Source of the DNA: Rhodoblastus sphagnicola
Lineage (GTDB): Bacteria; Pseudomonadota; Alphaproteobacteria; Rhizobiales; Beijerinckiaceae
Direction: 5' to 3'
Length of the DNA stretch: 64,000 nt
NCBI RefSeq assembly: GCF_002937075.1
Contig: NZ_NHSJ01000140.1
Coordinates: forward strand, 1-64,000
Shown here: in pieces, positions 15,839 through 36,255 of the stretch
Numbering within the stretch: position 1 is the first letter of the stretch
How the letters are laid out: each line of letters opens with the position of its first letter
The notes under the pieces: generated by a model
Seen by the model: only the letters and a program-made list of their open reading frames with translations
Database searches by the model: none
What the model was told of the DNA's origin: nothing
Translations under genes and position numbers: made by a program

Positions 15839-16513
15839 ATGACCGACACCGATGTCTTGAGTTGCTCCGACTGCCGGCAGTTGCACTGCTACCGCCACGA
15901 CAAGCATTACCCGAAATTCTGCCTCACCACCGCGCTGGATGACAGCGAACGCGCGGAGCTGGCGGCGCGCTACGCCGGCGCGCAAGAGGCGGACCGGGCG
16001 GATTCCTTCATCGCCCAGGCCGCCGCCGAGGTCGAGGGCCTGTATTACGGCAAGATCAACCGGGTCGAGGAAACCATCGCCTTCGCGCGGCGCATCGGCG
16101 CCGCCCGCATCGGTATCGCCACCTGCTTCGGCCTGATCGAGGAGACCCGGACCCTGGTGAAAATCCTGCGTCTCGCCGGATTTCACACGTTCACCGCGCT
16201 GTGCAAGGTGGGGTCGATCGACAAGACCGAAATGGGCGTTCCCGAGGATCTGAAGATCAAGTGCGACAGCTACGAGGCCGGCTGCAATCCGATCCTGCAG
16301 GCGCGCCTGCTCAACCGCGAACAGACCGGCCTCAACATCATCATGGGCCTGTGCGTCGGCCACGATTCGCTGTTCATCAAGCATTCCGAAGCGCCGGTGA
16401 CCACGCTTGTCGTCAAGGACCGCGTGCTCGGCCACAACCCGGTCGCCGCGCTTTACACGGTCGGCTCCTACAGCGCCCATCTGCTGGACAAGGAGCGACT
16501 GCAAAGCCTGTGA
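15839..16513 (+). CDS. DUF1847 cysteine-rich metal-binding protein
   Basis: From the ATG at 15839 the product has 224 residues. The N-terminus has a Cys/His cluster (SCSDCRQLHCYRHDKHYPKFC) typical of DUF1847, probably a zinc or iron-sulfur site. Further conserved Cys lie in IATCFGLIEE, TALCKVGSIDK, IKCDSYEAGCNP and MGLCVGHDSLF. The family is found mainly in anaerobes (clostridia, methanogens) and its function is unknown. The last part (FIKHSEAPVTTLVVKDRVLGHNP) is also family-typical. Here it opens a five-gene operon that ends in metY. The choice of start rests on the family N-terminus; AGGATG lies just upstream. Confidence 0.85.
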   Translation: MTDTDVLSCSDCRQLHCYRHDKHYPKFCLTTALDDSERAELAARYAGAQEADRADSFIAQAAAEVEGLYYGKINRVEETIAFARRIGAARIGIATCFGLIEETRTLVKILRLAGFHTFTALCKVGSIDKTEMGVPEDLKIKCDSYEAGCNPILQARLLNREQTGLNIIMGLCVGHDSLFIKHSEAPVTTLVVKDRVLGHNPVAALYTVGSYSAHLLDKERLQSL

Positions 16514-16548
16514 CCCTCAACGCTGTTCGACCGCCGAAAGTTTGTTTT

Positions 16549-17532
16549 ATGACCGATCTTGAAACGTCCGCGTCGCTGTCCCTGGACATCGCCGCCTATC
16601 TCGACATCGACAAGCCCCGCCATCTGCGCCCGCGCGTAAAAATCGACGTGGCCGACCGCGCCTGGCGGCCCCCGGTCGAGGACCGCCAGCGCGACTGGGT
16701 GTCCAGCATCGTCGCTCCGGCGCTCAAGATTTTGCGCGCCCGACGCGGTGAAGCCGCCTGCAAGGCGTTTTGCGCGCTGGGAACCGGCGTCGGCCTCGAC
16801 GCCCTGGCCGCCGTCGAATTGTTGGGCGCGGAGGTGGTCGGCGTGACCGACCTGTTCCCCGACGTGGTCGAGGCGGCCGCCGAAAATATCCGCCGCAACC
16901 TCGCGCCAAACAGTTCGGTCGCCCTGCACGCCGGGGCCGGCGACCTGCTGCAGCCGCTGCGCGGAAGCGGCGTCAAATTCGACCTGATCTACGAGAATCT
17001 GCCCAACCTGCCCCTGGCCGACGGCGCCAAGGTCGAGGCCGACAGCACCAGCGCGACGTTTCTCGCCCCGCGCGACGAGTCCGTTCCCCAGGCGGCGCGC
17101 GACGCGCTGCTGGCGCTGCACTATGTTGCGCTGGTCCAGGCCCATGAGTTCCTGAGGCCGGGGGGCGCGGTGCTGTCCACCATCGGCGCCCGCGTGCCGC
17201 TGTCGGCGCTGACGGACATGGCCGAGGCGGCCGGGTATGTCGCGCGTTTCCTGGGCTATTGGTGGAAGGCGCAGGTCGATCCTGAAGCGATCGTCGGGTC
17301 CTATGCCCAATGGCGGCGCCAGGGTCTGGGGCCGTTTCACTTCTACGAGGTGGACGTTCTGGAAGCCGCCTTCGCCGGGCTGGAGCTGGAACAGGCGGGC
17401 CGCGACGCCCTGTCGATCGAACAGGCCCTGCGCCCGCATCAACTGGATGCGGAAGCGGCGCTGGCGGGGTTGCGCCAGGGTCGGCGCATCGGCCACACCG
17501 TCGCGGCGCTGCTGTCGGAGCCGAACAGATGA
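16549..17532 (+). CDS. Class I SAM-dependent methyltransferase of unknown substrate
   Basis: The ATG at 16549 gives 327 residues. The SAM-binding glycine-rich loop is CALGTGVGLDALAAVELLGA near residue 77, followed by the acidic VVGVTDLFPDVVEAAAENI. In place of the NPPY motif of HemK/PrmA-type enzymes there is YENLPNLP (about residue 149), so a protein-glutamine or rRNA activity is not assured. The C-terminal 100 residues (WWKAQVDPEAIVGSYAQWRR, GPFHFYEVDVLEAAF) look specific to this group. A GTG at 16510 could extend it by 13 residues. It overlaps the cupin gene by ATGA. A thiol or small-molecule methyltransferase is possible given the neighbours, but unproven. Confidence 0.75.
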   Translation: MTDLETSASLSLDIAAYLDIDKPRHLRPRVKIDVADRAWRPPVEDRQRDWVSSIVAPALKILRARRGEAACKAFCALGTGVGLDALAAVELLGAEVVGVTDLFPDVVEAAAENIRRNLAPNSSVALHAGAGDLLQPLRGSGVKFDLIYENLPNLPLADGAKVEADSTSATFLAPRDESVPQAARDALLALHYVALVQAHEFLRPGGAVLSTIGARVPLSALTDMAEAAGYVARFLGYWWKAQVDPEAIVGSYAQWRRQGLGPFHFYEVDVLEAAFAGLELEQAGRDALSIEQALRPHQLDAEAALAGLRQGRRIGHTVAALLSEPNR

Positions 17533-18119
17533 GCGCCGATCTCGCCGCCCTCGTGGCGCTGCTGCGGGGCCGGCTGACACGGGCCGAGGGCAGGGCGGGC
17601 GCGGAGGCGGCCAAGGTGAGCGGCCTGCTCGACCGCGCGTCGGCGGAGGCCCCCTATGCGGCGAGCGCGCATCCGCTGGTCCGCCATCTGCCGGCCGCGC
17701 TGGCCGGACTGGAGCGCGACGCCCCGGACATCGCCGCCTTGCTTGGCCCGCTCGCCCAAGGCCTGCCCTGGCGCTACGGCTATGACGCCCGCGCCGACCT
17801 GCCGGATCTGCATCTCAACATGGGGTGGGCGGAGTTCGTCGGTCCGGCCGCGCCGTTGCGCAGCGACGAGGTCTGTCTCGGCCTGACCCTCATCGGCCCC
17901 CACACCCATTACCCGGCCCATCGCCATCCCGCCGTGGAGCTCTATCATGTGCTCACGGGCGCCGCCGAATGGAGCGGCGACTGGCGCCCGCCCGGCGCCT
18001 TCATCCTTCACGAAACCAACCAGGAGCACGCCATGCGCGCCGGTGATGAACCGTTGCTCGCCCTTTACACATGGAGCGGCGACGTCGTCTCTCCCTCGGT
18101 CTGGAGCGCGCCGTCATGA
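17529..18119 (+). CDS. DMSP-lyase-like cupin (DddQ/DddL/DddW superfamily)
   Basis: The 196-residue protein has an N-terminal helical part and a C-terminal cupin barrel. All residues known to matter in DddQ are in register: Y128-P-A-H131-R-H133-P-A-V-E137-L-Y139 in motif 1 and H167 in motif 2 (NQEHAMRAGDEPLLALYTW). In DddQ these bind the metal and supply the catalytic tyrosine for cleavage of dimethylsulfoniopropionate to DMS and acrylate. Length also matches DddQ (about 190-200 residues). The superfamily contains members with no DMSP activity, so the family call is firm and the substrate is inferred. It overlaps both neighbours by ATGA, directly before the two MetY-like genes. Confidence 0.8.
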   Translation: MSADLAALVALLRGRLTRAEGRAGAEAAKVSGLLDRASAEAPYAASAHPLVRHLPAALAGLERDAPDIAALLGPLAQGLPWRYGYDARADLPDLHLNMGWAEFVGPAAPLRSDEVCLGLTLIGPHTHYPAHRHPAVELYHVLTGAAEWSGDWRPPGAFILHETNQEHAMRAGDEPLLALYTWSGDVVSPSVWSAPS

Positions 18120-19282
18120 GCCTGCATCCCCAAACCCAGGCGCTGCACGCCGGCCATCGCGCCGACCCGCATACCGGGGCGGCGGCGGCGCCGATCTATT
18201 TCACCACCTCCTATCACTATCCCAGCGCCGAATATGCGCGCAGCCTGTTCGCCCTGGAGGTGGTCGGCTACACCTACACCCGCACCAGCAATCCCTCCCG
18301 CGACGTGCTGGAGCGCCGCGTGGCCGCCATCGAGGGCGGCAAGGCGGCGCTGGCCATGGCCTCGGGCGTGGCGGCCGTGGGCAACGCGCTGCTGGCCCTG
18401 ACCCAGACCGGGGACAATATCGTGGTCGCGCGCCGGACCCTTGACGGCGGCGGGCGCGATCTGGCGATCCAGTTGCGCCGCTTCGGCATCGACGTGCGCG
18501 AGGCCGCCACGGTCGAGGATTTTGTCGCGGCCACCGATGCGCGCACCCGGCTGTGGTTCGCCGAAAGCCTTGATGTCCCCAGCCTGGAGCGCTTTCCCAT
18601 CGCCGCCGCCGCGAAGGCGGGCCGGACGCTGGGCGTTCCGCTGGTGATCGACAATTCCAACCTGCCCTTCCTCGTCCGCCCGTTCGAGGAGGGGGCGGCC
18701 GTCACCGTCTATTCCACCGCCGCTTACCTGACCGGCCGCGCGGCGTCGCTTGGCGGGGTTCTGGTCGATGGCGGGACGTTCTCCTGGGAGACTGAACGCT
18801 TCCCGACCCTCCACACGCCCGACCCGTCCTATCATGGCGTGGTCTGGACCGAACTGGTCAAGCAATGGAACGCCTCGCCCCTGATCGCCCGGGCGCGCGG
18901 CGGCATCTTGCGCGATCTCGGCGCCGCCATCAGCCCGATGGCGGTGTTCGAGATCCTGCAAGGGCTGGAAACATTGCCGCTGCGCATGCGCGCCCATGCC
19001 GAAAACGCCGCGAAGGCGGCTGCGTTTCTGGCGTCCAGACCCGAAGTGACCGGCCTGAAAACCGAGGGCGGACTCGTCGCCCTCGACCTCCCCGATCCCA
19101 AGAAATTCGTGGCCGGGCTTGCGCTGTTCGGGCGCGGCGAAGACCTCGGAGGCCTCACAAGCTCGGTCGCGGTTTTGGCCGACGGCCGCATCCTGCTTTC
19201 GGTCGGCGTGGAACATGCCGACGACATTCTGGCCGACCTCGCGGCCGCCCTGACTCCTGAACAACAGAGAGACGCGCCATGA
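18116..19282 (+). CDS. MetY paralogue lacking the PLP-binding lysine (probable pseudoenzyme)
   Basis: The 388-residue protein aligns end to end with the adjacent MetY (for example YTRTSNPSRDVLERRVAAIEGG and HTPDPSYHGVVWTE). However, the PLP lysine is gone: MetY reads YSTTKYIGG (K205) where this protein reads YSTAAYLTG (A203). The cofactor-stacking Tyr of DLYGGT is replaced (TLDGGG). The C-terminal substrate-binding stretch GDARSLAIHPATTTH is missing, making it about 40 residues shorter. The Asp that pairs with the pyridine nitrogen is kept (VIDNSN). The frame is intact and coupled by ATGA to both neighbours, so it is not a decaying gene. It may be a regulatory or structural partner of MetY, or have a new lysine-independent activity. 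Confidence 0.85.
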   Translation: MSLHPQTQALHAGHRADPHTGAAAAPIYFTTSYHYPSAEYARSLFALEVVGYTYTRTSNPSRDVLERRVAAIEGGKAALAMASGVAAVGNALLALTQTGDNIVVARRTLDGGGRDLAIQLRRFGIDVREAATVEDFVAATDARTRLWFAESLDVPSLERFPIAAAAKAGRTLGVPLVIDNSNLPFLVRPFEEGAAVTVYSTAAYLTGRAASLGGVLVDGGTFSWETERFPTLHTPDPSYHGVVWTELVKQWNASPLIARARGGILRDLGAAISPMAVFEILQGLETLPLRMRAHAENAAKAAAFLASRPEVTGLKTEGGLVALDLPDPKKFVAGLALFGRGEDLGGLTSSVAVLADGRILLSVGVEHADDILADLAAALTPEQQRDAP

Positions 19283-20562
19283 CGCTGAAACCCGAAACCC
19301 TGGTCCTGCACGCGGGCTACCGCAGCGATCCCACCACCACCTCGGTGGCGGTGCCGATCTACCAGACCACCAGCTACCAGTTCCGCGACACCGAGCACGC
19401 GGAAAAACTGTTCGGACTGGCCGAACTCGGCAATATTTATTCGCGCATCATGAACCCCACCAATGATGTGCTCGAAAAACGCCTGACCGCGCTCGAAGGC
19501 GGCGTCGCCGCGCTCGCCGTCGCCTCCGGTCAGGCGGCCAGCACCTTCTCGATCCTGAACGTGGCCCAGGCCGGCGACAATTTCGTCACCTCCACCGACC
19601 TCTATGGCGGCACCTGGAATCTGTTCGCCAACACCTTCAAGCAACTCGGCATCGAGGCCCGCTTCGTCGATCCGTCGGACCCCGAAAACTTCCGCCGCGC
19701 GACGGATGCGAAAACCCGCGCCTATTACGCCGAAACCCTGCCGAACCCGAAGCTGCAGGTGTTCCCGATTCCCGAAGTGGCGAAAATCGCCGAAGAGCTG
19801 GGCGTTCCGCTCATCATCGACAACACCTCGGCTCCCATCATCGCCCGCCCGTTCGATCATGGCGCCCACATCATCGTCTATTCGACCACCAAATACATTG
19901 GCGGCCACGGCGTCGCCATCGGCGGCGCGTTGATCGATTCCGGCAAGTTCGACTGGGAAAAACACGCCGAACGCTTCCCGCTGCTGACCCAGCCCGATCC
20001 CAGCTATCACGGCGCGATCTGGACCGAGGCCGTCAAGCCGCTGGGGCCGATCGCCTACATCCTGCGCGCCCGCGTCATCCTGCAACGCGACATCGGCGCG
20101 GCCGTCAGCCCGTTCAACGCCTTCCAGACCCTGCAGGGCCTCGAAACCCTGCCGTTGCGCATGCGCGAGCACAACAAGAATGCGCTCGCCGTCGCCGAAT
20201 ACCTGTCAAAACACCCCAAAGTGACAAAGGTGATCCATCCCAGCGTGCAGACGGGCGAGCCGAGGCGGCGCGCCGACGCCGTGCTCAAGGGCGGCTACGG
20301 CGCGCTGGTGGGTTTCGAACTGGAAGGCGGCAAGGAGGCCGGCAAGACCTTCATTGACGCTTTAAAACTGCTCTACCACGTCGCCAATATCGGCGACGCC
20401 CGCAGCCTCGCCATCCATCCCGCGACGACCACCCATTCGCAACTGTCGCCGGAAGACCAACTGGCGACCGGCGTGTCCGAGGGCTACGTCCGCCTGTCCG
20501 TCGGAATCGAACATATCGACGATATCCTCGCCGATCTCGCCCAGGCTTTGGACGCCGTCTGA
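19279..20562 (+). CDS. metY: O-acetylhomoserine sulfhydrylase / aminocarboxypropyltransferase
   Basis: The 427-residue protein is a complete Cys/Met-metabolism PLP enzyme of the MetY type. Visible are NIYSRIMNPTNDVLEKRLTALEGG, the stacking Tyr in STDLYGGTWN, the Asp in IIDNTSAP, the PLP Lys K205 in YSTTKYIGGHG and the substrate-site NIGDARSLAIHPATTTHSQL. MetY joins O-acetylhomoserine with sulfide to homocysteine or with methanethiol to methionine; in purple bacteria it is the methanethiol-capturing step of sulfur salvage. It ends the DUF1847 operon and overlaps the lysine-less paralogue by ATGA. The island context favours organic thiol capture. Confidence 0.93.
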   Translation: MTLKPETLVLHAGYRSDPTTTSVAVPIYQTTSYQFRDTEHAEKLFGLAELGNIYSRIMNPTNDVLEKRLTALEGGVAALAVASGQAASTFSILNVAQAGDNFVTSTDLYGGTWNLFANTFKQLGIEARFVDPSDPENFRRATDAKTRAYYAETLPNPKLQVFPIPEVAKIAEELGVPLIIDNTSAPIIARPFDHGAHIIVYSTTKYIGGHGVAIGGALIDSGKFDWEKHAERFPLLTQPDPSYHGAIWTEAVKPLGPIAYILRARVILQRDIGAAVSPFNAFQTLQGLETLPLRMREHNKNALAVAEYLSKHPKVTKVIHPSVQTGEPRRRADAVLKGGYGALVGFELEGGKEAGKTFIDALKLLYHVANIGDARSLAIHPATTTHSQLSPEDQLATGVSEGYVRLSVGIEHIDDILADLAQALDAV

Positions 20563-20853: not shown

Positions 20854-22266
20854 ATGACCTTGCCGGTTTCTCATTCGCCGATCGCGGCGCCGCCGCCGGT
20901 CGCGCGGGGGCTGCTGCCGCTGATCGGCAACACGCCGCTGGTTGAACTCACCAAACTCGACGTCGGGTCGTCCAGGCTGTTCCTGAAACTCGAAAGCGCC
21001 AATCCCGGCGGCTCGATCAAGGACCGCCCGGCGCTGGCCATGGTGGAGGCGGCCGAGCGCGCGGGCCAGTTGAAGCCCGGCGGCGTCATCGTCGAAGCCA
21101 CCGCCGGCAATACCGGCCTGGGGCTCGCCCTGGTCGCCAACGCCAAGGGCTACAAGCTCACGCTGGTCATTCCCGACAAGATGAGCCGCGAAAAAATCTC
21201 GCACCTGCGCGCGATGGGCGTGGAGGTGGTGCTGACCCGCTCCGACGTCGGCAAGGGTCATCCCGACTATTACCAGGACAAGGCGCGTCAGATCGCGGAG
21301 GCGACGCCCGGCGCCATTTTCATCAACCAGTTCGAAAATCCCGCCAATCCGCTCGCGCACCAGATTGGAACCGGGCCGGAGATTCTCGCCCAGCTCGAAG
21401 GCAAGGTTGACGCCATCGTTCTCGGCGTCGGGTCGGGCGGCACCTTGACCGGCCTGAGCCGTTTCTTTGCCGAACATTCGCCGCAAACCAAATTCGTGCT
21501 GGCCGATCCCGCCGGCTCGATCCTCAAGGACGTCGTCGAGAAGCGCACGCCGGGGCCGGTGGGAAGCTGGCTGGTCGAAGGCATAGGCGAGGATTTCGTG
21601 CCGGCCATCGCCGATCTCTCGCGCGTGACGCACGCCTATACCATCACCGACGCCGAATCCTTCGCGGCGGCGCGCGCGCTGCTGAAAGCCGAGGGCCTGC
21701 TCGCCGGCTCCTCGACCGGAACGGCGCTCGCCGCCGCGCTCAAATTCGCCCACGCGCAAACCGAGCCGCAGCGAATCGTGGTGCTGTCGCCCGACAGCGG
21801 CAACAAATATCTGTCGAAAATGTTCAACGACGACTGGATGCGCGACCAGGGTTTCATCGAGAACGCGCGCCGCGGCGATTTGCGCGATCTGATCGGGCGG
21901 CGTCACGACCAGGGCGCGTCGGTGACGGTCGGCCCCGACGACACCTTGCAGGTCGCCTATGCGCGCATGAAGCTCTACGACGTCTCGCAATTGCCGGTGC
22001 TCGAAGGCGATCGCGTCGTCGGCCTGATCGACGAATCCGACCTGCTGCTCGCGGTGTTCGAGCGCGCGCTGGGCTTTCACGATCTGGTCCGCGCCGCGAT
22101 GGTCAAAGACATCGAGACGGTCGGGGCCAGCCAGCCCATCCAGGCGCTGATCCCGGTGTTCGACAAGGGGTTTGTCGCCGTCATCGTCGACGGGCCGAAT
22201 TTCCTCGGCCTGATCACCCGCATCGACCTTCTCAATCATCTCCGTCGTCGCAAGGAACAATTATGA
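20854..22266 (+). CDS. Cystathionine beta-synthase with CBS-domain pair
   Basis: The 470-residue protein has a fold-type II PLP catalytic part (residues about 20-330): IGNTPLVELTKL, the PLP Lys K56 in NPGGSIKDRPA, the phosphate loop GVGSGGTLTGLS and EATAGNTGLGLALVA. Residues about 345-470 hold two CBS domains (VTVGPDDTLQVAYARM, VLEGDRVVGLIDESDLL; DKGFVAVIVDGPNFLGLITRIDLL) that usually sense adenosyl compounds. The enzyme condenses serine and homocysteine to cystathionine, the first step of reverse transsulfuration. The ATG at 20854 is preceded by GGGGG; a TTG four codons earlier is possible. It overlaps the next gene by ATGA. Confidence 0.9.
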   Translation: MTLPVSHSPIAAPPPVARGLLPLIGNTPLVELTKLDVGSSRLFLKLESANPGGSIKDRPALAMVEAAERAGQLKPGGVIVEATAGNTGLGLALVANAKGYKLTLVIPDKMSREKISHLRAMGVEVVLTRSDVGKGHPDYYQDKARQIAEATPGAIFINQFENPANPLAHQIGTGPEILAQLEGKVDAIVLGVGSGGTLTGLSRFFAEHSPQTKFVLADPAGSILKDVVEKRTPGPVGSWLVEGIGEDFVPAIADLSRVTHAYTITDAESFAAARALLKAEGLLAGSSTGTALAAALKFAHAQTEPQRIVVLSPDSGNKYLSKMFNDDWMRDQGFIENARRGDLRDLIGRRHDQGASVTVGPDDTLQVAYARMKLYDVSQLPVLEGDRVVGLIDESDLLLAVFERALGFHDLVRAAMVKDIETVGASQPIQALIPVFDKGFVAVIVDGPNFLGLITRIDLLNHLRRRKEQL

Positions 22267-23471
22267 CCAAAAGTTCTGCGGACAAGAAGACGCCCGGCTT
22301 GCAGACGCGGGCGATTCACGGCCGCCAGCATCCCGACCCCCTGACTGGCGCGGTCAATCCGCCGATCTACGCCAGTTCGACCTTCGTGCAATCCTCGCCC
22401 GGCGTGCATTCGGGCTGGGAATATTCCCGCTCCGGCAATCCGACCCGCGCCGCGTTCGAGGCCGCGCTGGCCGAACTCGAAGGCGGCGCGGCGGGCTTCG
22501 CCTTCGCCTCGGGACTGGCGGCGCAGGCCGCCGTGCTGGATCTGCTCGATCAGGGCGCGCATGTGATCGCCTCCAACGATCTGTATGGCGGTTCGTGGCG
22601 GCTGTTGCATCGCGTGCGCGAGCGCACGGCGGGCCTGAAGATCACCCATGTCGACGCCAGCGACGCCGCCGCGGTCGAGGCGGCGATCACGCCGGAAACC
22701 CGGCTGATCTGGATCGAGACGCCGGGCAATCCGCTGCTCAGCATCGCCGATCTCCCGGGCATTGCCGAGATCGGCAAAAGGCGCGGCCTCATCACCGTCG
22801 CCGACAACACGTTCGCTTCGCCGGTGGTGCAGCGGCCGCTGGAGCATGGCTTCGACATTGTCGTGCATTCCGTGACCAAATATGTCAGCGGCCATTCCGA
22901 CATTATCGGCGGCGCGGCCATCGTGCGCGACGCGCCTGACCTCATCGACCGGCTCAAGTTCCTGCAAAACGCCACGGGAGGCGTGCTCGATCCCTTCAGC
23001 AGCTTCCTGGCTTTGCGGGGCTTGAAAACCCTGCCGCTGCGGATCGCGCGCCACGCCGCCAACGCGCGGGCGGTCGCCGAATTCCTCGAAAGCCACGACA
23101 AGGTCGCTCAGGTCAGATATCCCGGCCTGCGCAGCCATCCCCAACACAATCTGGCGGCCCGGCAGATGAGCAGCGGCGGCGGCATGGTGTCGTTCTTCGT
23201 CAAGGGCAGTCCGGAACAGACGATCCGCGTGCTCGAAAGCTTGCGCTATTTCGCGCTGGCCGAATCGCTCGGCGGCGTCGAGAGCCTGGTCGGGCATCCC
23301 TGGTCGATGAGCCACGGCTCGATTCCCGAACCGCTGCGCCGCGCCGCCGGCATCACGCCGCAATTGATCCGGTTGTCGGTCGGCATCGAGGATGTCGAGG
23401 ATCTGATCGGCGATCTCGAACAGGCGCTTGAAGCTTTGGGCCAAGAGCGTGCGCGCGTCGTCGTGGCTTGA
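22263..23471 (+). CDS. Cystathionine gamma-lyase/beta-lyase-type PLP enzyme
   Basis: The 402-residue protein belongs to the Cys/Met-metabolism PLP family. It has EYSRSGNPTRAAFEAALAELEGG, NDLYGGSWRL, the Asp in VADNTFASPV, the PLP Lys K206 in HSVTKYVSGHSD, and the C-terminal ESLGGVESLVGHPWSMSHGSIP. Pairing with cystathionine beta-synthase in one operon (ATGA overlap) points to the gamma-lyase reaction, cystathionine to cysteine, 2-oxobutyrate and ammonia. A beta-lyase or a methionine-gamma-lyase-like reaction that releases methanethiol cannot be excluded by motifs. With MetY it would move sulfur from homocysteine or methionine into cysteine. Confidence 0.88.
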   Translation: MTKSSADKKTPGLQTRAIHGRQHPDPLTGAVNPPIYASSTFVQSSPGVHSGWEYSRSGNPTRAAFEAALAELEGGAAGFAFASGLAAQAAVLDLLDQGAHVIASNDLYGGSWRLLHRVRERTAGLKITHVDASDAAAVEAAITPETRLIWIETPGNPLLSIADLPGIAEIGKRRGLITVADNTFASPVVQRPLEHGFDIVVHSVTKYVSGHSDIIGGAAIVRDAPDLIDRLKFLQNATGGVLDPFSSFLALRGLKTLPLRIARHAANARAVAEFLESHDKVAQVRYPGLRSHPQHNLAARQMSSGGGMVSFFVKGSPEQTIRVLESLRYFALAESLGGVESLVGHPWSMSHGSIPEPLRRAAGITPQLIRLSVGIEDVEDLIGDLEQALEALGQERARVVVA

Positions 23472-23528: not shown

Positions 23529-23599
23529 GGGACTCGGGGTCCGCATGGCTTGGCGTGGATCCCATCGGCGCTCCCGTCGCGCTCAAAATAAATAATCTT

Positions 23600-23618: not shown

Positions 23619-23701
23619 TATAGCCTGCTCCCACTTCCGAGGATCGTCTCCCGACCGCCGATGCGTCCGGGGCCGTCCATCGCCGAACAAGGAACAGGAC
23701 G

Positions 23702-26613: not shown

Positions 26614-26620
26614 TTTCCAC

Positions 26621-29226: not shown

Positions 29227-29408
29227 GCGACCTTCACCCTCGCGGCGCCGCGAAAAAACGCGCCCGTCTTGTCACACGGTTTCCGCGAGATCGCGATCTG
29301 CGATCCGCTGAACAACGGGAGGTCCGAGCGGCGGAAGCAAGCGCCGCCGGCAATTTCTCAACTGACTCAAAGCGCGCAAGAAATCTCCTCGACTTCTAGA
29401 AAGATTGC

Positions 29409-29427
29409 GTCTATAGAATTAGTGGAC
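29409..29427 (+). promoter_or_regulatory. Island operator, copy 4
   Basis: GTCTATAGAATTAGTGGAC matches the perfect copy at 23600-23618 at 15 of 19 positions, all differences being transitions, and keeps both outer arms GTCTAT and GGAC. It lies 53 bases before the ferredoxin start. Confidence 0.7.
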
Positions 29428-29479
29428 TAATAGGCGGAACGGCTTGGCAAAACCTGCGAAAGGACCATCAGGCGCGAAC

Positions 29480-29767
29480 ATGATCGGCTCCCCATCGCAA
29501 ACACAAACCGAACAGCCCTCCGCCGCCCAGTGCGACGCCTGTCCCGCCGATTGCCTCGACGCCTGCTTCAATGAGGCCATCGTCGCCGCGTCCGGCGGCG
29601 GCGTCGAGATCGAGGCCGCCAACTGCGCCGGATGCGGCGCCTGCGTCCCCGCTTGCGAATTCGGCTTCATCCGCTTGCACGACGGCGTCGCCCGCATCGT
29701 CTTCCCGGAGGGCAAGCCCAACACACCTGAATCCAGCCCGTCCCGCGCCCCACAATGGAGTGAATGA
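29480..29767 (+). CDS. Small 2[4Fe-4S] ferredoxin of the corrinoid operon
   Basis: The ATG at 29480 (AGG eight bases upstream) gives 95 residues; a TTG at 29444 would add 12. Two cluster motifs are seen: C-x2-C-x3-C-x3-C (CDACPADCLDAC, one residue longer than usual between the second and third Cys) and C-x2-C-x2-C-x3-C (CAGCGACVPAC). It ends in an acidic, Pro-rich tail. As first gene of the operon that ends with RACo and CobW, it is a good candidate electron donor for reductive reactivation of Co(II) corrinoid, since RACo needs low-potential electrons. The protein is soluble and cytoplasmic. Confidence 0.82.
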   Translation: MIGSPSQTQTEQPSAAQCDACPADCLDACFNEAIVAASGGGVEIEAANCAGCGACVPACEFGFIRLHDGVARIVFPEGKPNTPESSPSRAPQWSE

Positions 29768-30430
29768 ATGTCCGCCGACCAGGAAGAATTGTTTGAACGA
29801 TTGGCGACCGCCGTTTTCGAACTGGACGAGGCGCTTGCCGCCAAGCTGTCGCAGGAAGTGCTCGATCGCGGCTACGACGCCTGGAACGCGGTCGAGCACG
29901 GGCTGCTCGCGGGCGTCAACCGGGCCGGCAAGCTGTTCGACGAGGAAGAATATTTCGTGCCGGAACTGCTGATCGCCGCCGACGCCATGTATGCCGGCTT
30001 GGCGATCCTGCGCCCGCACATCAAGGGGCATGACAGCGGCTTCAACCGCAAGGTGGTGATCGGCGTCGTCCAGGGCGACACCCACGACATCGGCAAGAAT
30101 CTGGTCCGCATCATGCTTGAGGTCGCCGGGTTCGAGGTTCACGACCTCGGCCGCGACGTCCCGCCGCGCAAATTCGTCGAGGCCGCCATCGCCTTGAAGG
30201 CCGATGTCATCGCCCTCTCCACCCTGATGACCACCACCATGGAGCGCATGGGCGAAGTGGTCTCCATTCTCGAAGCCGAGCAGGTGCGCAACCGCTTCAA
30301 GGTGATCGTCGGCGGCTCCCCGCTGTCGCAGCAATTCTCAGACCGCATCGGGGCCGACGGCTATGCGCCCAAAGCCGCTCAGGCGGTGGAGTTGACCAAA
30401 CGTCTCGTTGGATTGGTGAACGCGGCATGA
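29768..30430 (+). CDS. Corrinoid (B12-binding) protein, MtaC/MtbC/MtsB-like
   Basis: The 220-residue protein has the usual two parts: a helical cap domain (residues about 1-90; VEHGLLAGVNRAGKLFDEEEYFVPELLIAADAM) and a Rossmann B12-binding domain. The cobalt ligand lies in GDTHDIGKNLV (H106 of the D-x-H-x-x-G motif), followed by the S-x-L site (ALSTLMTTTM) and the GG of VIVGGSPLS. It carries the methyl group between methyltransferases as methyl-Co(III). It is the only corrinoid protein here, serving three UroD-type methyltransferases. It follows the ferredoxin stop directly and overlaps the next gene by ATGA. Confidence 0.93.
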   Translation: MSADQEELFERLATAVFELDEALAAKLSQEVLDRGYDAWNAVEHGLLAGVNRAGKLFDEEEYFVPELLIAADAMYAGLAILRPHIKGHDSGFNRKVVIGVVQGDTHDIGKNLVRIMLEVAGFEVHDLGRDVPPRKFVEAAIALKADVIALSTLMTTTMERMGEVVSILEAEQVRNRFKVIVGGSPLSQQFSDRIGADGYAPKAAQAVELTKRLVGLVNAA

Positions 30431-31506
30431 CCATCGCCATTCGCACCGAACAGAGCGAGGAACTCTCCTCGCTGGAGCGGGTGGTGCTCGCGCTGCAATA
30501 CAAGAAGCCGGATCGTGTGCCGGCCGCCCCGCTGGTCTGCGGCGCCTCCTGCCGCGTGCTCGGCTATTCCTACGACCGCTGGTCGCAGGACCCCAGGATC
30601 GCCATCGCCAGCCTGGTCGCCGCGCAGGAGCTGATCGAATTCGACGGCTTCCTCACCCTGGTCGATCTGTCGGTCGAGGCGGAAGATTTCGGCCAGGAGC
30701 TGATCTTCCCCGAACGCAGCACGGCGCTGCCCAATTTCGACAATCCCTTCATCAAGACCGCCGACGATTATTCCAAGGTCAAGGCGGTCGATCCGCGCAA
30801 GTCGCGGCGCATGTCCACGGTGATCGAAATCGTGCGCGGGCTGGTCGAAGCCAAGGGCGACACGGTGCCGACCATGGGTTTTGTTTACGGCCCGCTCGGC
30901 GTTCTCTCGCAGATTCGCGGCCATGCCGAACTGTTCAAGGACATCATCAGGCATCCCGACCGGGTGCTGGAGGCCGTGCACACCATCAACAAGGTGCTGG
31001 TCGAATACGCCTTGGCCCAGATCGAGGCCGGGGCGCACGCCATCGTGCTCGATCCGCTTTATTCCTCGGCCAGCATTTTGAAGAAATCGACCTGGGTCAA
31101 ATTCGAGGCCGAAATCTTCAAATCCGTGTCCGACGCCATTCGCGACGCCGGCGTGCCGGTGCTGGTGCACAATTGCGGCGGCGGCGTCTATTTCGACGCC
31201 GTGCTGGAGCACATCAACCCCATCGCCATTTCCCACGCCTATCCCGCCCATGGCTCGGCCAATTGGGAAGAACACGCCGCCAACTGGGCCAAAAAGGTGG
31301 TCACCATCGGAGTCGCCGATCCCGCCAAGGTCGGCCACGAATTTTCCCAGGCGCAGGTGCTGGAAGACAGCCGCCAGCAGATCGAGACGTTCAAAGTCGC
31401 CGAAGGCGGGTTCATCCTGTCCAGCGGCTGCGAGTTCCCGCCCAACGGCAATCTGCTGAGCGCCCGCACCATGGTGCAGGCCGCCCGCCTCTATGGCCGG
31501 TATTGA
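30427..31506 (+). CDS. UroD-family corrinoid methyltransferase 1 (MtaA/MtbA/MtsA-like)
   Basis: The 359-residue protein has the uroporphyrinogen-decarboxylase TIM-barrel fold of zinc methyltransferases such as MtaA, MtbA and MtsA. The zinc site is H248-x-C250 in VLVHNCGGG plus C335 in SSGCEFPPNG. These enzymes activate a thiol on zinc and exchange its methyl group with a corrinoid protein. It is the most divergent of the three copies here (extra N-terminal 15 residues, FVYGPLGVLSQIRG in place of the SLSGPVS motif). One of the copies may demethylate the substrate and another deliver the methyl group; roles cannot be assigned. Confidence 0.87.
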   Translation: MTIAIRTEQSEELSSLERVVLALQYKKPDRVPAAPLVCGASCRVLGYSYDRWSQDPRIAIASLVAAQELIEFDGFLTLVDLSVEAEDFGQELIFPERSTALPNFDNPFIKTADDYSKVKAVDPRKSRRMSTVIEIVRGLVEAKGDTVPTMGFVYGPLGVLSQIRGHAELFKDIIRHPDRVLEAVHTINKVLVEYALAQIEAGAHAIVLDPLYSSASILKKSTWVKFEAEIFKSVSDAIRDAGVPVLVHNCGGGVYFDAVLEHINPIAISHAYPAHGSANWEEHAANWAKKVVTIGVADPAKVGHEFSQAQVLEDSRQQIETFKVAEGGFILSSGCEFPPNGNLLSARTMVQAARLYGRY

Positions 31507-31507
31507 G

Positions 31508-32554
31508 ATGGGCCTCGATCGTCGGGAACGGTTCTTGCGCGCCCTGGCGCGCCAGTCAGTGGACCGCGCGCCAGTGATCTGCACCGGCGGCAGCATGACC
31601 GCGACCCCAGAGGACGTGGTGGCGCTTTCGGGTTTTGCCCTGCCGGAAGCCCATTGCGACGCCGCCGCCATGGCTGGACTGGCCCTGGCGGCGGCCCGCA
31701 TCACCGGCTTTGAATCGGTCGGCGTTCCGCTGTGCGTCACCGTCGAGGCCGAGGCGTTCGGCGTGAAGATCGATCTGGGCGACGCCCGCACCGAAGCCCG
31801 CATCGTCCAGGAGCCCTTCGCGTCGATCGTGGACGTCACCGTGCCTTCGGTGGACGACCTGTTGCGGCGCAGTCGCGTAAAAGTGACGGTCGAGGCGGTG
31901 CGCCGACTGGCCGCGACGGCCGGCGACCTGCCGATCATCGCCAATCTGATCGGTCCGGTCAGCATCGCGGCCTCCGTGGTCGAGCCGACCGTTTTCTTGC
32001 GCGAATTGCGCACCAGGCCGAGCGAAACGGCGGTGCTGTCGGCCCATGTCACCGATTTCCTGATCGCCTGGTCGCGCCAGTTGATCGCCGCCGGCGCCGA
32101 CGCCATCGCCATCCATGAAGACACCACCACGCCCGCGCTGGTGGGACCGCGCACTTTTGAGACGGCGGTGTTTCCGCATCTGCAACGGCTGGTCGCGGCC
32201 ATCCACGAAGCCGGCGGGCGAGTCCTGCTGCACATGTGCAACGCGCTGGGCAAGTCGGCCGAAACCGTGGCGCGTCTGGGCGTCGACGCCTATATCCCCG
32301 ACGCCTCGCTCACCGCCGCCGAACTGCGCGAAAGCCTGCCGGATGTCGCCCTGGTCGGCAACATCAGCACCTTCCTGCTGCACCAGGGCCAGCCGGGGCC
32401 GATCGCCAAACTGGCGGCGCGGCTGTCCGGTCCCGGCGGCTTCGACGCGCTGTCGCCGACCTGCGGCATGTCCAGCATCACGCCGCTCCAAAACATTCGC
32501 GCCATGACCGGCGCAACAACCCAATCGCCCGAACAGGAGGTCGCAAATGTCTGA
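31508..32554 (+). CDS. UroD-family corrinoid methyltransferase 2
   Basis: From the ATG at 31508 the product has 348 residues (an ATG at 31493 overlapping the previous gene is possible). Domains and motifs: MGLDRRERFLRALARQSVDRAPVI entry, LIGPVSIAASVVEPTVFLREL, zinc ligands H242-x-C244 in LLHMCNALG and C319 in SPTCGMSSITP. It is clearly paralogous to the next gene product, sharing VDRAPVICTGG, LGVPLC-VTVE and LRTRP segments. Corrinoid-dependent methyl transfer to or from a thiol is the family reaction. It overlaps methyltransferase 3 by eight bases. Confidence 0.87.
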   Translation: MGLDRRERFLRALARQSVDRAPVICTGGSMTATPEDVVALSGFALPEAHCDAAAMAGLALAAARITGFESVGVPLCVTVEAEAFGVKIDLGDARTEARIVQEPFASIVDVTVPSVDDLLRRSRVKVTVEAVRRLAATAGDLPIIANLIGPVSIAASVVEPTVFLRELRTRPSETAVLSAHVTDFLIAWSRQLIAAGADAIAIHEDTTTPALVGPRTFETAVFPHLQRLVAAIHEAGGRVLLHMCNALGKSAETVARLGVDAYIPDASLTAAELRESLPDVALVGNISTFLLHQGQPGPIAKLAARLSGPGGFDALSPTCGMSSITPLQNIRAMTGATTQSPEQEVANV

Positions 32555-33572
32555 CATCGCTCCAAGCGAACGTCTGAGTCGCGTTCTCGCCAACCAGCCG
32601 GTGGACCGCGCCCCGGTGATCTGCACCGGCGGGATGATGAACGCCGCCGTGACCCAGGTCATGGACGAAAACGGCCCGACCCTGCCGGCGGCGCATTTCG
32701 ACGCCGAGGGCATGGCCGAACTGGCCCAGCGCGTCCACGCCGCCACCGGCTTCGAAAATCTCGGCGTGCCGTTCTGCATGACCGTCGAGCCGGAAATTCT
32801 CGGCAGCCGCATCGATCCGGGCACGCTGTCCTGCGAACCCAAAATCGCCGAAGAGGCGTTCGCCTCCTGCGGCGCGGTCGAAATCCGCGATGTGAAGAAA
32901 ATCATCCGCGAGGGCCGCATCGCCACCGTCGTCCAGGCCGCCCACCACCTGAAAAAGCGCAACCCCGACACCCCCGTGATCGCCAGCCTGTCCGGCCCGG
33001 TCAGCACCGCCGCATCGGTGGTGACGCCGCTGACCTTTCTCAAGGAATTGCGCACCCGCCCGCAAGACGCCCATCGCGTGCTCGACTATGTGACGCGGCT
33101 GCTGGTGGAATATGCCCGCGAAGTCATCGACAACGGCGCCGATGTCATCGCCATCGGCGACCCCACCGCCACCGGCGAGATTTTGGGACCGCGCATCTTT
33201 GAAGATTTCGCCGTGCGCTACATCAATCAGGTGTGCGACGCGGTCCACGCCAACGGCAAGCAGGTGATCGTCCATATTTGCGGCGACATGTCCAAGAGCC
33301 GCAACCAGCTCGCCGCGATCCACGCCGACGCCATCAGCGTCGACGCTTTGGTCAATCTCAAGCAGTTGAAGGCGGACTTCCCCCAGATCAACACAATGGG
33401 CAACGTCAGCACCTCCCTGCTCGAATTCGGCGATGCGGAAAAAGTGTCGCGCAACACCGCCCGTCTCGTGCGCGACGGCATCGACATCATCTCGCCGGCC
33501 TGCGGCCTGAGCACCTCGACCGGCCTGCACAACATCCGCGCCCTCACCGAGACCGTGAAGGGAAACGCGTGA
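32547..33572 (+). CDS. UroD-family corrinoid methyltransferase 3
   Basis: The 341-residue protein is a paralogue of methyltransferase 2 with the same blocks: VDRAPVICTGGMMNAAV, SLSGPVSTAASVVTPLTFLKELRTRP, zinc ligands H243-x-C245 in VIVHICGDMSKS and C319 in SPACGLSTSTGLHN. The last motif is close to that of MtaA/MtbA methylcobamide:CoM methyltransferases. Coenzyme M is not expected in this organism, so the thiol partner may be homocysteine, methanethiol or another thiol. The gene overlaps methyltransferase 2 and the RACo gene. Confidence 0.88.
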   Translation: MSDIAPSERLSRVLANQPVDRAPVICTGGMMNAAVTQVMDENGPTLPAAHFDAEGMAELAQRVHAATGFENLGVPFCMTVEPEILGSRIDPGTLSCEPKIAEEAFASCGAVEIRDVKKIIREGRIATVVQAAHHLKKRNPDTPVIASLSGPVSTAASVVTPLTFLKELRTRPQDAHRVLDYVTRLLVEYAREVIDNGADVIAIGDPTATGEILGPRIFEDFAVRYINQVCDAVHANGKQVIVHICGDMSKSRNQLAAIHADAISVDALVNLKQLKADFPQINTMGNVSTSLLEFGDAEKVSRNTARLVRDGIDIISPACGLSTSTGLHNIRALTETVKGNA

Positions 33573-35272
33573 TGGCGCAGGTTCATTTCCGCTCCCATGA
33601 CCTGCGCATTGAAGTGGAGAAGGGCTCCTCGCTGCTCGACGCGGCGCGGCGCGGCCGTATCCGGCTGGACGCCCCCTGCAATGGCGCGGGCACATGCGGC
33701 AAATGCAAGGTGCGCCTCGACGACGACGCCCGCGACGCCGCCCGCATCGTAGCCTCCGACAAACTGTCGGAGGCCGACCGTCGCGACGGTTTCGTGCTGC
33801 TCTGCACGACGCTGGTCGAAGGCGACCTCGCCCTCGACATGCCGGTCGGCGCCGAGCACGGGTTGAAGATTCTGGAGCACGGCCAGCAGATCGACCTGCC
33901 GCTGGCGCCGTGGATCGGCAAACGCCACCGGCCCGAGTTGAACGCCACCGAAGTCCTGTCCGGCGCGGATGTGATCGCGCAGGAGCCCGGCGACACCACG
34001 CCCTACAGCTATGGCCTGGCGATCGACATCGGCAGCACGACCATCGTCGCCTCGCTGATCGATCTGGGGACGGGATCGCGGGTTGGTTCGGCCTCGGCCC
34101 TCAATCCGCAGGCGCACCATGCCCAGGACGTGCTGTCGCGCATCAAACTGGGCTCGACGCCGGAGGGGCTGGCCTTGCTGGCGGGCGAGGTCATTGGCGA
34201 GATCAACCGTCTCATCGGCGAACTCGTCGCCGAGGCCCGCATCCCGCGCCGGCGCATCTACGAAGCGGTGATCGCCGGCAACACCTGCATGCTGCATCTG
34301 GCCGCCAAGGTCGATCCCGAACCCTTGGGCCGCTATCCCTACACGCCGACGCTGACCGGCGACCGCCATCTGTCGTCCCGGGCCTTGGGGCTGGCGATTT
34401 CGAAATCCGGGCTGGTCTATGTGCCCCCGATCGTCTCCGGCTTCGTCGGCGCCGACATCACCGCCGGCATGTTGTCCGCCAGCCTCGCCGAGGCCAAGGG
34501 CGTCACCTTGTTCGTCGATATCGGCACCAACGGCGAGATGGTCTTGGCCCGCGACGGCCATTTGCAGGCGACCTCCACCGCCGCCGGCCCGGCCTTCGAG
34601 GGCATGAACATCGCCTGCGGCATGCGGGCGGCTCAAGGCGCCATCGAGCGCGTCAGTCTCGAAGGCGGCGACGTCAGCGTGCAAACCATCGGCGACGCGC
34701 CAGCTGTCGGCCTGTGCGGCAGCGGCCTGCTCGACGCCATCGCCGAACTGGCCGTGCATGGCGTGATCGAAAGCTCCGGCCGCTTCACCAAAAATCGCGG
34801 CGCGCTGCCGCCGGGCCTGCAAGCCCGCTTTGGCGAGCGCGACGGCAAGCCTGTGTTTCATCTCACCGAAACCGTCTTTCTGTCGCAGGGCGACATCCGC
34901 CAGGTGCAGCTCGCCAAGGGCGCCGTGCGCGCCGGCATCGACGTGCTGCTGCGCCGCAACGGCCTGATCGCGGCGCAAGTGGACCGCGCGCTGATCGCGG
35001 GTTCGTTCGGCTATCACCTGACGGTGCGCAGCCTGCTGGATATCGGCCTGTTCCCGCCCGAATTCGACGGCAAGGCGGAATATGTCGGCAACACCTCGCA
35101 GACCGGCGCTGAAGCCCTGCTGACCCACGCGCCGAGCCGGGAGTCGCTCGCGCGGCTGGTGCGCGCGGTCGAAGCGGTGGAGCTGGCCAATGACGACGCC
35201 TTTACCAAAGTGTTCGTCGCCGCCATGGCGTTTCCCCGCCCCAACCGCCCTGAACTGGAAGCCGTGGCGTGA
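33572..35272 (+). CDS. RACo-type reductive activator of corrinoid protein
   Basis: The ATG at 33572 overlaps the preceding stop (TGATG) and gives 566 residues. The N-terminus is a [2Fe-2S] ferredoxin domain with C36-x5-C42-x2-C45 (APCNGAGTCGKC) and C78. A linker leads to the large ASKHA-type ATPase part: GLAIDIGSTTIVASL near residue 146, GFVGADITAGML, FVDIGTNGEMVL near 315, and the Gly-rich LCGSGLLDAI. RACo proteins (RamA-like in function, DUF4445 family) use ATP to return inactive Co(II) corrinoid to Co(I). Presence next to the corrinoid protein is the normal context. Upstream in-frame sequence is shadow of methyltransferase 3. Confidence 0.93.
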   Translation: MAQVHFRSHDLRIEVEKGSSLLDAARRGRIRLDAPCNGAGTCGKCKVRLDDDARDAARIVASDKLSEADRRDGFVLLCTTLVEGDLALDMPVGAEHGLKILEHGQQIDLPLAPWIGKRHRPELNATEVLSGADVIAQEPGDTTPYSYGLAIDIGSTTIVASLIDLGTGSRVGSASALNPQAHHAQDVLSRIKLGSTPEGLALLAGEVIGEINRLIGELVAEARIPRRRIYEAVIAGNTCMLHLAAKVDPEPLGRYPYTPTLTGDRHLSSRALGLAISKSGLVYVPPIVSGFVGADITAGMLSASLAEAKGVTLFVDIGTNGEMVLARDGHLQATSTAAGPAFEGMNIACGMRAAQGAIERVSLEGGDVSVQTIGDAPAVGLCGSGLLDAIAELAVHGVIESSGRFTKNRGALPPGLQARFGERDGKPVFHLTETVFLSQGDIRQVQLAKGAVRAGIDVLLRRNGLIAAQVDRALIAGSFGYHLTVRSLLDIGLFPPEFDGKAEYVGNTSQTGAEALLTHAPSRESLARLVRAVEAVELANDDAFTKVFVAAMAFPRPNRPELEAVA

Positions 35273-36255
35273 GCGGCGCGGATTCGCGTATTCCGGTCAC
35301 GCTGGTCACGGGCTTTCTGGGCAGCGGCAAGACCACCCTGCTGTCCGCCCTGCTACGCCAGCCCGAACCGGGGCGCCTCGCAATCGTCATCAACGAATTC
35401 GGCGAGGTTCCGCTTGATCAGGCGTTGATCGGGCGCACCGAAGGCCAGGTCGTCGTGTTGAGCGGCGGCTGCCTGTGCTGCGCCATCGGCGGCGACGTGG
35501 TCTCGACCCTTCTGGGCTTGCACGCGCTGCGCGCGGAAAAACCGTTCGAGCGGGTCGTGATCGAAACCAGCGGTCTGGCCGACCCCGGTCCGATCCTGGC
35601 GCCGCTGGTCCAGGCGCCGGAGCTGACCGGTCTGTTCCGCGTGGATGGCGTGGTGGCGGTGGTGGACGCCTTGCAAGGCCTGCGCGAACTCGGGAGGCAG
35701 CGGGTTTGCGTCAAGCAGGTCGCGCTCGCCGACCGCATCCTCCTCAGCAAGAGCGACATCGCCGCGCCACTGGCGGTGACGCGTTTGCGGGACCGGCTGG
35801 CCGAGATCAATCCCTGGGCGCCGCTGACGACGGCCAATCACGGCGCCGTGGACGCCGCCTGGCTGTTCGATCCGGGGGCCGCCCGCCCCATCTGCGAACA
35901 CGCCGGTCACGATCACGACCATTCCCACGGCATCGGCGCGTTTTGCCTGTGGTTCGACCAGCCCGTGACATGGGAGGCGTTCGCGCGGGCCGTCGGCGAC
36001 CTGACCGAGGCGCACGGCGAGGCCATCCTGCGCATCAAGGGTCTGCTGAACCTCAACGGACGCCCCGTCGCCGTCCATGGCGTGCAACACTTCCTGCATC
36101 CGCCCGAACCGCTGCCGGACTGGCCGGACCAGGAGCGCCGCTCGCGGCTCATTGTCATCGCCGACCGGCTGACAGAGGCGGAGGTGCGATCGTTTTTCTC
36201 AAACATGGACTTTGTTGCGCAAGCAAGCCGGAAAGAATGCGCTGACGCTTCCTGA
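35269..36255 (+). CDS. CobW/COG0523-family GTPase, likely metallochaperone
   Basis: The GTG at 35269 overlaps the RACo stop (GTGA) and gives 328 residues. The G-domain shows Walker A GFLGSGKTTLL (residues 15-25), the metal site GGCLCC (C68-x-C70-C71), VIETSGLADP and the base-binding SKSD. A His-rich stretch (CEHAGHDHDHSHG, about residues 205-217) precedes the C-terminal domain. COG0523 proteins deliver zinc or cobalt to target enzymes. Since the operon encodes three zinc methyltransferases and a cobalt cofactor protein, either metal would make sense. It is the last gene of the operon. Confidence 0.9.
   Translation: MSGADSRIPVTLVTGFLGSGKTTLLSALLRQPEPGRLAIVINEFGEVPLDQALIGRTEGQVVVLSGGCLCCAIGGDVVSTLLGLHALRAEKPFERVVIETSGLADPGPILAPLVQAPELTGLFRVDGVVAVVDALQGLRELGRQRVCVKQVALADRILLSKSDIAAPLAVTRLRDRLAEINPWAPLTTANHGAVDAAWLFDPGAARPICEHAGHDHDHSHGIGAFCLWFDQPVTWEAFARAVGDLTEAHGEAILRIKGLLNLNGRPVAVHGVQHFLHPPEPLPDWPDQERRSRLIVIADRLTEAEVRSFFSNMDFVAQASRKECADAS

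Follow-up and report, generated by a model that had tools for sequence, protein, structure and literature searches.

A predicted tandem operator links a corrinoid methyl-transfer unit to sulfur genes in Rhodoblastus

The closest described relatives of the system reported here are the type 1 mlp clusters defined by Kountz and Balskus in 2023 (PMC10418091), for which the consulted parts of that paper propose the use of methyl-selenium or methyl-sulfur compounds and name obligate anaerobes, 73% of them Firmicutes, as hosts. We analysed a 64,000-nucleotide stretch of Rhodoblastus sphagnicola DNA (contig NZ_NHSJ01000140.1, positions 1 to 64,000; hereafter the window), in which an island at 15839–36255 joins a corrinoid methyl-transfer unit to sulfur genes and an ATP-binding cassette (ABC) importer. 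Rhodoblastus is a purple non-sulfur bacterium and, we assume, not an obligate anaerobe. An earlier note, made from the sequence alone, had placed the genes of this island in four units on the plus strand, and Pfam, NCBIfam and motif analysis bore this out, giving four co-directional runs with all genes in frame and gaps of 291, 230 and 253 bp between the runs (Table 1). The new result is a tandem operator that ties the corrinoid unit (run 4) to sulfur genes. The island is probably part of a Rhodoblastus sulfur/cysteine-limitation regulon in which the corrinoid unit acts as an S-methyl transfer system, so that a purple phototroph appears to use a B12 demethylation set, mainly described from strict anaerobes, in a sulfur-scavenging network.

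As far as the consulted sections of PMC10418091 describe type 1 mlp clusters, the corrinoid unit resembles them in encoding a corrinoid protein, several UroD-family Mlps with His-Cys-Cys ligands and a bacterial RACE/RACo activase in one cluster, in having sulfur genes nearby (MetY and cystathionine enzymes) and in lacking a tetrahydrofolate methylase; no tetrahydrofolate methyltransferase Pfam family was found among the proteins scanned in 15566–36252. It differs from them in its carrier, a phototrophic alphaproteobacterium, in the ferredoxin and CobW of the Rhodoblastus operon, neither word occurring in the main text of version 4 of PMC10418091, in the mostly absent SelD and inconstant Mar-like genes of Rhodoblastus, and in its operator and regulon, of which none was seen in those sections. 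Since clusters of this type, with a proposed role in the salvage of methyl-sulfur or methyl-selenium, had already been reported by Kountz and Balskus, the novelty that the earlier note attached to such a set in an alphaproteobacterium is reduced. The word Rhodoblastus is not in the main text of version 4; preprint version 3 has it once and other early versions seem to as well. These early versions may already report a Rhodoblastus cluster, and we make no claim of first sight. Judged by title and start of abstract, no other paper was found that joins corrinoid sulfur metabolism with such bacteria.

The proposal of three zinc UroD-type methyltransferases agrees with the H-x-C ... C ligands kept in UroD1–3 of four Rhodoblastus genomes and in the copies at a locus of the Spartobacteria metagenome-assembled genome (MAG) UBA695 (L041, 21 kb read). 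By the criterion given in the consulted sections of PMC10418091, these predicted ligands point to sulfur or selenium chemistry. Ratios of nonsynonymous to synonymous substitution (dN/dS) of 0.05–0.29 for the corrinoid protein, UroD1–3 and RACo indicate purifying selection. The methanogen soluble coenzyme M methyltransferases MtaA and MtbA share the UroD family and the zinc ligands, and UroD3 matches MtaA (4ay7) directly, but UroD1–3 are all below the MtaA and MtbA NCBIfam equivalog cut-offs (231 of 400 and 211 of 600 bits for UroD3, less for UroD1 and UroD2). MtsAB is a related methanogen methyltransferase system. A type 1 mlp cluster is defined as having one or more proteins of each of the Mlp2 and Mlp3 clades. 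Best identities to UroD-like proteins of the Acetoanaerobium cluster, itself untyped, were 42% for UroD3, 31% for UroD2 and 24% for UroD1, the last being 13–24% identical to the four UroD-like proteins there. The Acetoanaerobium noterae (Firmicutes) locus at L172 3398–13887, whose record is unannotated, carries an ABC importer, a CobW-like GTPase, a corrinoid protein, UroD-like proteins and RACo.

A palindromic operator of two dyads 13 bp apart was predicted from the sequence before three of the four units of the window. A Gibbs search over 23 upstream stretches, window included, returned a 16-bp palindrome with a best log-likelihood of 255, compared with 148–156 in four shuffled sets (six seeds for the real set, three for each shuffled set); the four sequences from G089, a genome of another family, yielded no convincing site in this run. 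A matrix built from ten sites of other genomes ranked the window dyads at 23608, 29417 and 15622 top in the 64 kb (20.3, 19.3 and 19.3), the control maximum being 14.1 in 20 Markov-1 shuffles. The best neighbour lay at exactly the 13-bp spacing, a feature unused in the site search, in 29 of 43 strong sites, some of which are orthologous; when the flanks were shuffled, the mean count was 2.4 and the highest 7. Scored in tandem, the operators of the three units reached 35.9, 29.8 and 26.9; the next value, 10.7 at 23590, is an overlapping register of the top-scoring operator, and is followed by 9.1.

We extended this analysis to relatives, of which 100 were scanned; 11 genomes (G000–G010) belong to the genus, R. 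sphagnicola itself being G000, and those with the corrinoid unit are referred to as carriers. Sites in relatives precede CBS/CGL, metY-like and cysE-like genes, cysK with a SrpI encapsulin gene, and Lrp-type regulator genes, and the CBS sites of G001 and G008 score 25–28. Pfam analysis of representatives identified Lrp/AsnC, SrpI encapsulin, desulfurase (aminotransferase class V), serine acetyltransferase, PALP-family CysK-like and sulfatase proteins. At zero or one mismatch to the pattern, six of seven places in G008 lay before choline sulfatase, CBS, substrate-binding protein (SBP), cysE-like, ferredoxin-corrinoid or metY-like genes, as did four of eight in G001 before a ferredoxin, CBS, SBP or Lrp/AsnC gene (overlapping places of one AT repeat taken once, C42 and C59 places left out of inspection). 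Among the matches listed for G005 (at least seven), four of seven preceded a ferredoxin, SBP, lrp or metY-like gene, and two of the five loci returned for G000 were metY-like and lrp. The shared regulation expected in the earlier note was thus recovered for three of the four units and for sulfur genes elsewhere, and because the operator is common to both, the corrinoid unit most likely belongs to a sulfur/cysteine-limitation regulon. Since the Lrp gene carries its own site 26–27 bp upstream in three genomes, we infer that an Lrp/AsnC protein is the best candidate for the regulator acting at the tandem dyads.

Two further gene sets were noticed near operator-like sites. At L127 15937–18960, a SrpI-type encapsulin gene and a desulfurase-like gene stand beside cysK-like genes with operator-like sites between them (Pfam on the L127 copies), and similar genes occur at L125, L130, L131 and L199. 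In having a SrpI-like shell and desulfurase genes, here beside operator-like sites, these Rhodoblastus relatives resemble the SrpI encapsulin-cysteine desulfurase system, as described in the consulted part of PMC8049743. On the contig of the window, 4.5–9.3 kb past its end (L073 4491–9329, contig C140 of G000), a Radical-SAM protein (NF045502) is followed by NifH-, NifD- and NifK-like genes that adjoin MFS and SDR genes and an ABC importer, with an operator-like site by the SBP gene; similar sets are found in G008 (L074) and the Spartobacteria MAG (L079).

The companions of the operator also bear on selenium salvage, in which the unit would demethylate dimethylselenide or methylselenol, as proposed for most type 1 mlp clusters. 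The consulted sections of PMC10418091 link the closest described clusters mainly to methyl-selenide and report that ClMlp2 preferred selenide over sulfide in vitro. SelD exceeded its cut-off in the carrier G005 and one further genome out of 13; it did not do so in the carriers G000, G001 and G008, where SelA, SelB and SelC were not searched, and the operator is common to cysE-like, cysK, metY-like and CBS genes. Given that SelD over cut-off is missing in three of four carriers, selenium was rejected as the main role, and we regard selenium salvage as quite improbable.

RACo orthologues (83% identity) are present in four of the 11 genus genomes (G000, G001, G005 and G008), and three of the ten other genus genomes searched (G001, G005 and G008) show the corrinoid unit in synteny, with identical gene order. 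RACo matches at 33–41% in other genomes were rejected as the same system, their identity being well short of the 83% seen in the three orthologues, and are presumably parts of split MetH systems. Within the genus, DUF1847 and the cupin (at least 77%) are confined to the same four members; outside it, G089 carries DUF1847, and both G089 and G016 carry a cupin of 48% identity. CoA-transferase A (at least 80%) is found in the four carriers plus G002 and G004. A UroD1 scan of an 84,980-species collection, which could find only genomes with one of two exact peptides of 7–8 residues, returned four loci: Rhodoblastus acidophilus DSM 142, DSM 137 and MO (91–94%) and the Spartobacteria MAG (73%). With UroD1 in one of 385 genomes of the class (R. 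sphagnicola) and one of 240 genomes of the MAG's phylum (the MAG), the corrinoid unit has a sparse and scattered distribution, a pattern suggestive of transfer.

The arrangement of the units supports their co-occurrence better than their presence across the genus does. In two of the three other carriers (G001 and G008), a CBS/CGL pair (~60% identical) lies directly upstream of ferredoxin, and in G005 this pair is divergent from genes for the S-adenosylmethionine (SAM)-dependent methyltransferase, cupin, MetY' and MetY. At the Spartobacteria locus, a same-strand run of SBP, ATPase, permease, UroD and DUF1847 genes is divergent from corrinoid protein, UroD1 and UroD2 genes, and RACo, CBS, CGL and a further corrinoid protein are encoded in the same 21 kb. 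About half of the kinds of gene in the island are found again at this locus, the importer being only 26–43% identical to that of the island. The co-occurrence anticipated from the window thus held in other genomes. In G089, which is without this RACo, an Rrf2 regulator, CBS, CGL, DUF1847 and an ABC importer stand together, with cupin, SAM-methyltransferase and MetY together at a separate place, and G002 and G004 have ABC-CoA-transferase units without this RACo. Given these rearranged and partial arrangements, the modules belong together loosely and are not one fixed cassette, and the idea of four units as a fixed set was abandoned. A transferred corrinoid methylotrophy unit could instead lie by chance beside amino-acid and transport genes, which would suit its sporadic distribution (four of 11 genus genomes, one of 385 class genomes) and the transporter and CBS modules that occur without it, but not the adjacency that recurs in rearranged form, the locus in Spartobacteria or the tandem operator common to the units. 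Chance clustering was rejected because of the operator and the locus in another phylum, and unrelated neighbours are improbable.

Several observations weigh against a sulfur-limitation regulon that includes the corrinoid unit. The MetH tree joins the four carriers in one group (one change, weak support of 45/19), and co-occurrence across them may therefore be a single event; the 21 kb of the Spartobacteria locus contains no cupin, MetY pair, CoA-transferase, ferredoxin or CobW. Operator evidence is uneven as well. The CBS gap of the window has a weak site of 8–11 bits (rank 9 with the ten-site matrix and 11 with a matrix from other operons), and G089 has no site of at least 13 bits at its CBS/CGL-DUF1847-ABC genes. 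The other-operon matrix, whose input sites lie at metY-like, lrp, cysE-like, cysK and sulfatase genes, places the three window sites first, second and third of 63,985 but is partly circular, since an island-derived matrix or pattern had served to find its input sites, and a matrix from the SBP sites of four other genomes alone places 15622 second and 29417 just sixth, after AT-rich positions near 41650. Leaving out single units (SBP or ferredoxin) among 240 upstream regions put the G005 ferredoxin at rank 6, that of G008 at 22 and the window's outside the top 40 when ferredoxin sites were omitted, and the window SBP outside the top 30 when SBP sites were omitted. At two mismatches or fewer, the pattern shows no excess over a reversed control on both strands of four genomes (121 versus 114 in G000, 62 versus 66 in G001, 77 versus 87 in G005 and 69 versus 101 in G008), and strong sites also precede genes without a sulfur link, for example at L035, L197 and L198.

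Most of the gene names in the earlier note were sustained; those of SsuA, CBS and CGL proved looser than claimed. The SBP scores under the SsuA cut-off (TIGR01728, 85.9 versus 163.5 bits), and SsuABC was rejected as a name for the importer; the CBS-like protein falls under its equivalog cut-off (404 versus 510) and the CGL-like protein under that of its best model (475.8 versus 513). The lysine-less MetY paralogue was confirmed: the pyridoxal phosphate (PLP) lysine of MetY lies in STTKY, which reads STAAY in MetY', and is absent from the MetY' of all four genomes. MetY passes both tests for an O-acetylhomoserine sulfhydrylase, the TIGR01326 cut-off and the PLP lysine, while MetY' fails both (335 of 495 bits). 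The lysine, the LYGG tyrosine and the VRLSVG arginine mark functional residues in MetY, and the YTR..NP motif of the family reaches into the active site of the neighbouring subunit. The MetY' copies of four aligned Rhodoblastus genomes lack all three residues and keep YTR..NP, and their dN/dS (0.20–0.39) is above that of MetY (0.04–0.07), as for a dead paralogue that is relaxed but kept. In our reading, MetY' would be a catalytically dead partner subunit in a hetero-oligomer with MetY.

The cupin matches the Ddd-cupin family by its Pfam model and by a motif H-x-H-x3-E-x-Y with a later H, aligned with DMSP lyase 5cu1, which we take to be metal ligands; cleavage of dimethylsulfoniopropionate (DMSP) is a putative activity, and DMSP as the substrate, for which the cupin family was the sole ground, was not upheld. 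The two CoA-transferase subunits are of the glutaconate type (1poi A, E 2.6e-25; B, E 1.6e-37), with an aligned Glu that is presumably catalytic. A CoA_binding_2 domain fused to MetY was noticed at L129 11726–13513 (Pfam on the L129 copy) and also at L130, L131 and in G001, and this fusion directly follows the CoA-transferase-hydratase unit in four of the six genomes carrying that unit. Two genes lie within the coordinates of the earlier note and outside its reasoning: the DUF1847 protein, for which no relative of solved structure (best E 0.35) and no paper containing the word DUF1847 were found, and the SAM-dependent methyltransferase, with generic family matches only.

Gene content, recurrence in two phyla, zinc-ligand retention, purifying selection and the shared operator are the basis for a corrinoid S-methyl transfer system within a sulfur-limitation regulon, and in this form organosulfur assimilation remains the best-supported interpretation, the detailed path first proposed, DMSP included, being hypothetical. 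When reduced sulfur is short, a regulator at the tandem dyads would switch on organosulfur import and sulfur release. At least one His-Cys-Cys UroD protein would hold methanethiol or a methylthio compound at its zinc and transfer the methyl to the Co(I) of the corrinoid protein, with release of a thiol or sulfide, and another would hand that methyl on to a second thiol, homocysteine for example; RACo and ferredoxin would re-reduce Co(II), and CobW would probably serve metal supply. MetY, with MetY' as its partner subunit, would capture the thiol or sulfide, and the sulfur would pass to cysteine via the CBS/CGL-like pair. In this scheme we infer the substrate, direction, methyl acceptor and regulator, as well as the parts played by the cupin, the SAM-methyltransferase, DUF1847 and the CoA-transferase unit. 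More tentatively, and with rather less confidence, corrinoid S-demethylation could be an assimilatory sulfur source in a facultative phototrophic alphaproteobacterium, feeding MetY and a conserved dead MetY'. A single tandem-dyad operator for sulfur limitation would then govern it together with genes for cysteine, methionine and encapsulin, and the SAM-methyltransferase and Ddd-type cupin would open thioethers by methylation to sulfonium and subsequent elimination.

MetY also features in the methylthio-alkane route of Rhodospirillum rubrum. That route of methylthio-alkane reductase and anaerobic methylthioadenosine (MTA) salvage (PMC12552129 and PMC4958253, consulted in part) likewise involves a purple bacterium, methylated sulfur compounds and methanethiol, but keeps the methylthio group whole according to the consulted sections of PMC10418091, whereas the Rhodoblastus corrinoid path would split methyl from sulfur. 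The unit might alternatively be an arm of methionine or MTA salvage rather than an importer-fed path, with methanethiol or methylthio compounds from MarHDK-like reductases being demethylated or remethylating homocysteine, as Kountz and Balskus proposed for non-selenium clusters (PMC10418091, sections consulted). Putative MarD-like genes, a label given to nitrogenase-alpha relatives far under NCBIfam cut-offs, are present in two of four carriers, G000 and G008 (81%); those of G000 lie on C18 and on C134 (53% to the C18 copy), the latter followed by a metY-like gene, and in G008 a site lies 345 bp before the NifH-like gene. The other two carriers, G001 and G005, have no relative of the MarD-like protein above 30% identity, and such salvage leaves the importer unexplained, making it unlikely. 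A role as sole methionine synthase was rejected because MetH is present: its homocysteine-methyltransferase domain was found in 13 of 13 genomes, in frames of 1,237–1,252 amino acids in all four carriers.

Table 1. Genes and predicted operators of the island, in window coordinates
Feature	Run	Position	Strand	Basis
Operator 1 (predicted)		15622..15650		dyad 15622 (20.5 bits) + weak dyad 13 bp on (6.4); 217 bp before DUF1847 start, 107 bp from arsR
DUF1847 protein, Cys-rich	1	15839..16513	+	Pfam DUF1847 193 bits; 58% identity to Spartobacteria-locus copy
Class I SAM-dependent methyltransferase	1	16549..17532	+	PrmA/PrmC-like core
DMSP_lyase-family cupin (DddL/DddQ/DddW-like)	1	17529..18119	+	Pfam DMSP_lyase 99.6 bits, cut-off 27
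MetY' (MetY paralogue without PLP lysine)	1	18116..19282	+	Cys_Met_Meta_PP 220 bits
MetY, O-acetylhomoserine sulfhydrylase	1	19279..20562	+	Cys_Met_Meta_PP 406 bits; TIGR01326 609 bits, cut-off 495
Cystathionine beta-synthase-like (CBS)	2	20854..22266	+	PALP + two CBS stretches
Cystathionine gamma-lyase/synthase-like (CGL)	2	22263..23471	+	Cys_Met_Meta_PP 486 bits
Operator 2 (predicted)		23595..23623		tandem dyads 23595 (14.6) + 23608 (21.3); second starts 94 bp before SBP
NMT1/SsuA-like substrate-binding protein (SBP)	3	23702..24787	+	Pfam NMT1
ABC permease, Ntr/Ssu/Tau type	3	24797..25816	+	BPD_transp_1
ABC ATPase, Ssu/Tau/Sao-like, below cut-offs	3	25810..26613	+	ABC_tran
CoA-transferase subunit A, glutaconate-CoA-transferase-like	3	26621..27613	+	Pfam CoA_trans
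CoA-transferase subunit B	3	27610..28404	+	Pfam CoA_trans; a Glu aligned with 1poi_B
Enoyl-CoA hydratase/crotonase family	3	28441..29226	+	ECH_1
Operator 3 (predicted)		29404..29432		tandem dyads 29404 (8.5) + 29417 (21.3); second starts 63 bp before ferredoxin
Ferredoxin	4	29480..29767	+	two 4Fe-4S-type Cys motifs; weak NCBIfam matches
Corrinoid protein, MtgC/MtbC/MtaC family	4	29768..30430	+	B12-binding + B12-binding_2
UroD1, divergent UroD-type methyltransferase	4	30427..31506	+	URO-D; H-N-C ... C; 73% to Spartobacteria copy
UroD2, UroD-type methyltransferase	4	31493..32554	+	URO-D; PRK06252 282 bits, cut-off 244
UroD3, UroD-type methyltransferase	4	32547..33572	+	URO-D; PRK06252 374 bits; MtaA 4ay7 E 2.5e-43
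RACo-type corrinoid reductive activase	4	33572..35272	+	RACo middle + C-terminal, N-terminal 2Fe-2S (Fer2)
CobW-family GTPase	4	35269..36255	+	cobW + CobW_C

Genes for ArsR, an SBF-family (Acr3-like) protein and an ArsC-like protein lie at 13580–15515 of the window, divergent from run 1 with operator 1 between. Decayed arsR-like and permease-like fragments, read by eye, occur just before the ferredoxin-corrinoid operon of G005 (L035 678–1261). Both would be compatible with organometal or methyl-arsenic handling, in which the corrinoid system would strip methyl groups from methylated arsenic or metals, with export of the product by the ars genes, but no ars genes were noticed by eye beside the units of G001 and G008, where no family scan was made, and the companions of the operator are largely sulfur genes; we consider such a role very improbable. 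Further along the window, 42426–50987 encodes a 2,853-amino-acid protein with a glucoamylase region and GH94 supersandwich and catalytic regions, presumably cyclic beta-glucan synthase-like.

Corrinoid S-methyl clusters are widespread, and selenium, methionine salvage and sulfur are the candidate purposes. Because R. acidophilus strains are held in culture collections and the cluster there has a regulatory signature connecting it with sulfur genes, the question is testable in a laboratory strain. If the corrinoid unit does serve a sulfur-limitation regulon, the organosulfur cycle of facultative phototrophs would gain a B12-dependent demethylation route, and one regulon would link several sulfur systems of purple bacteria.

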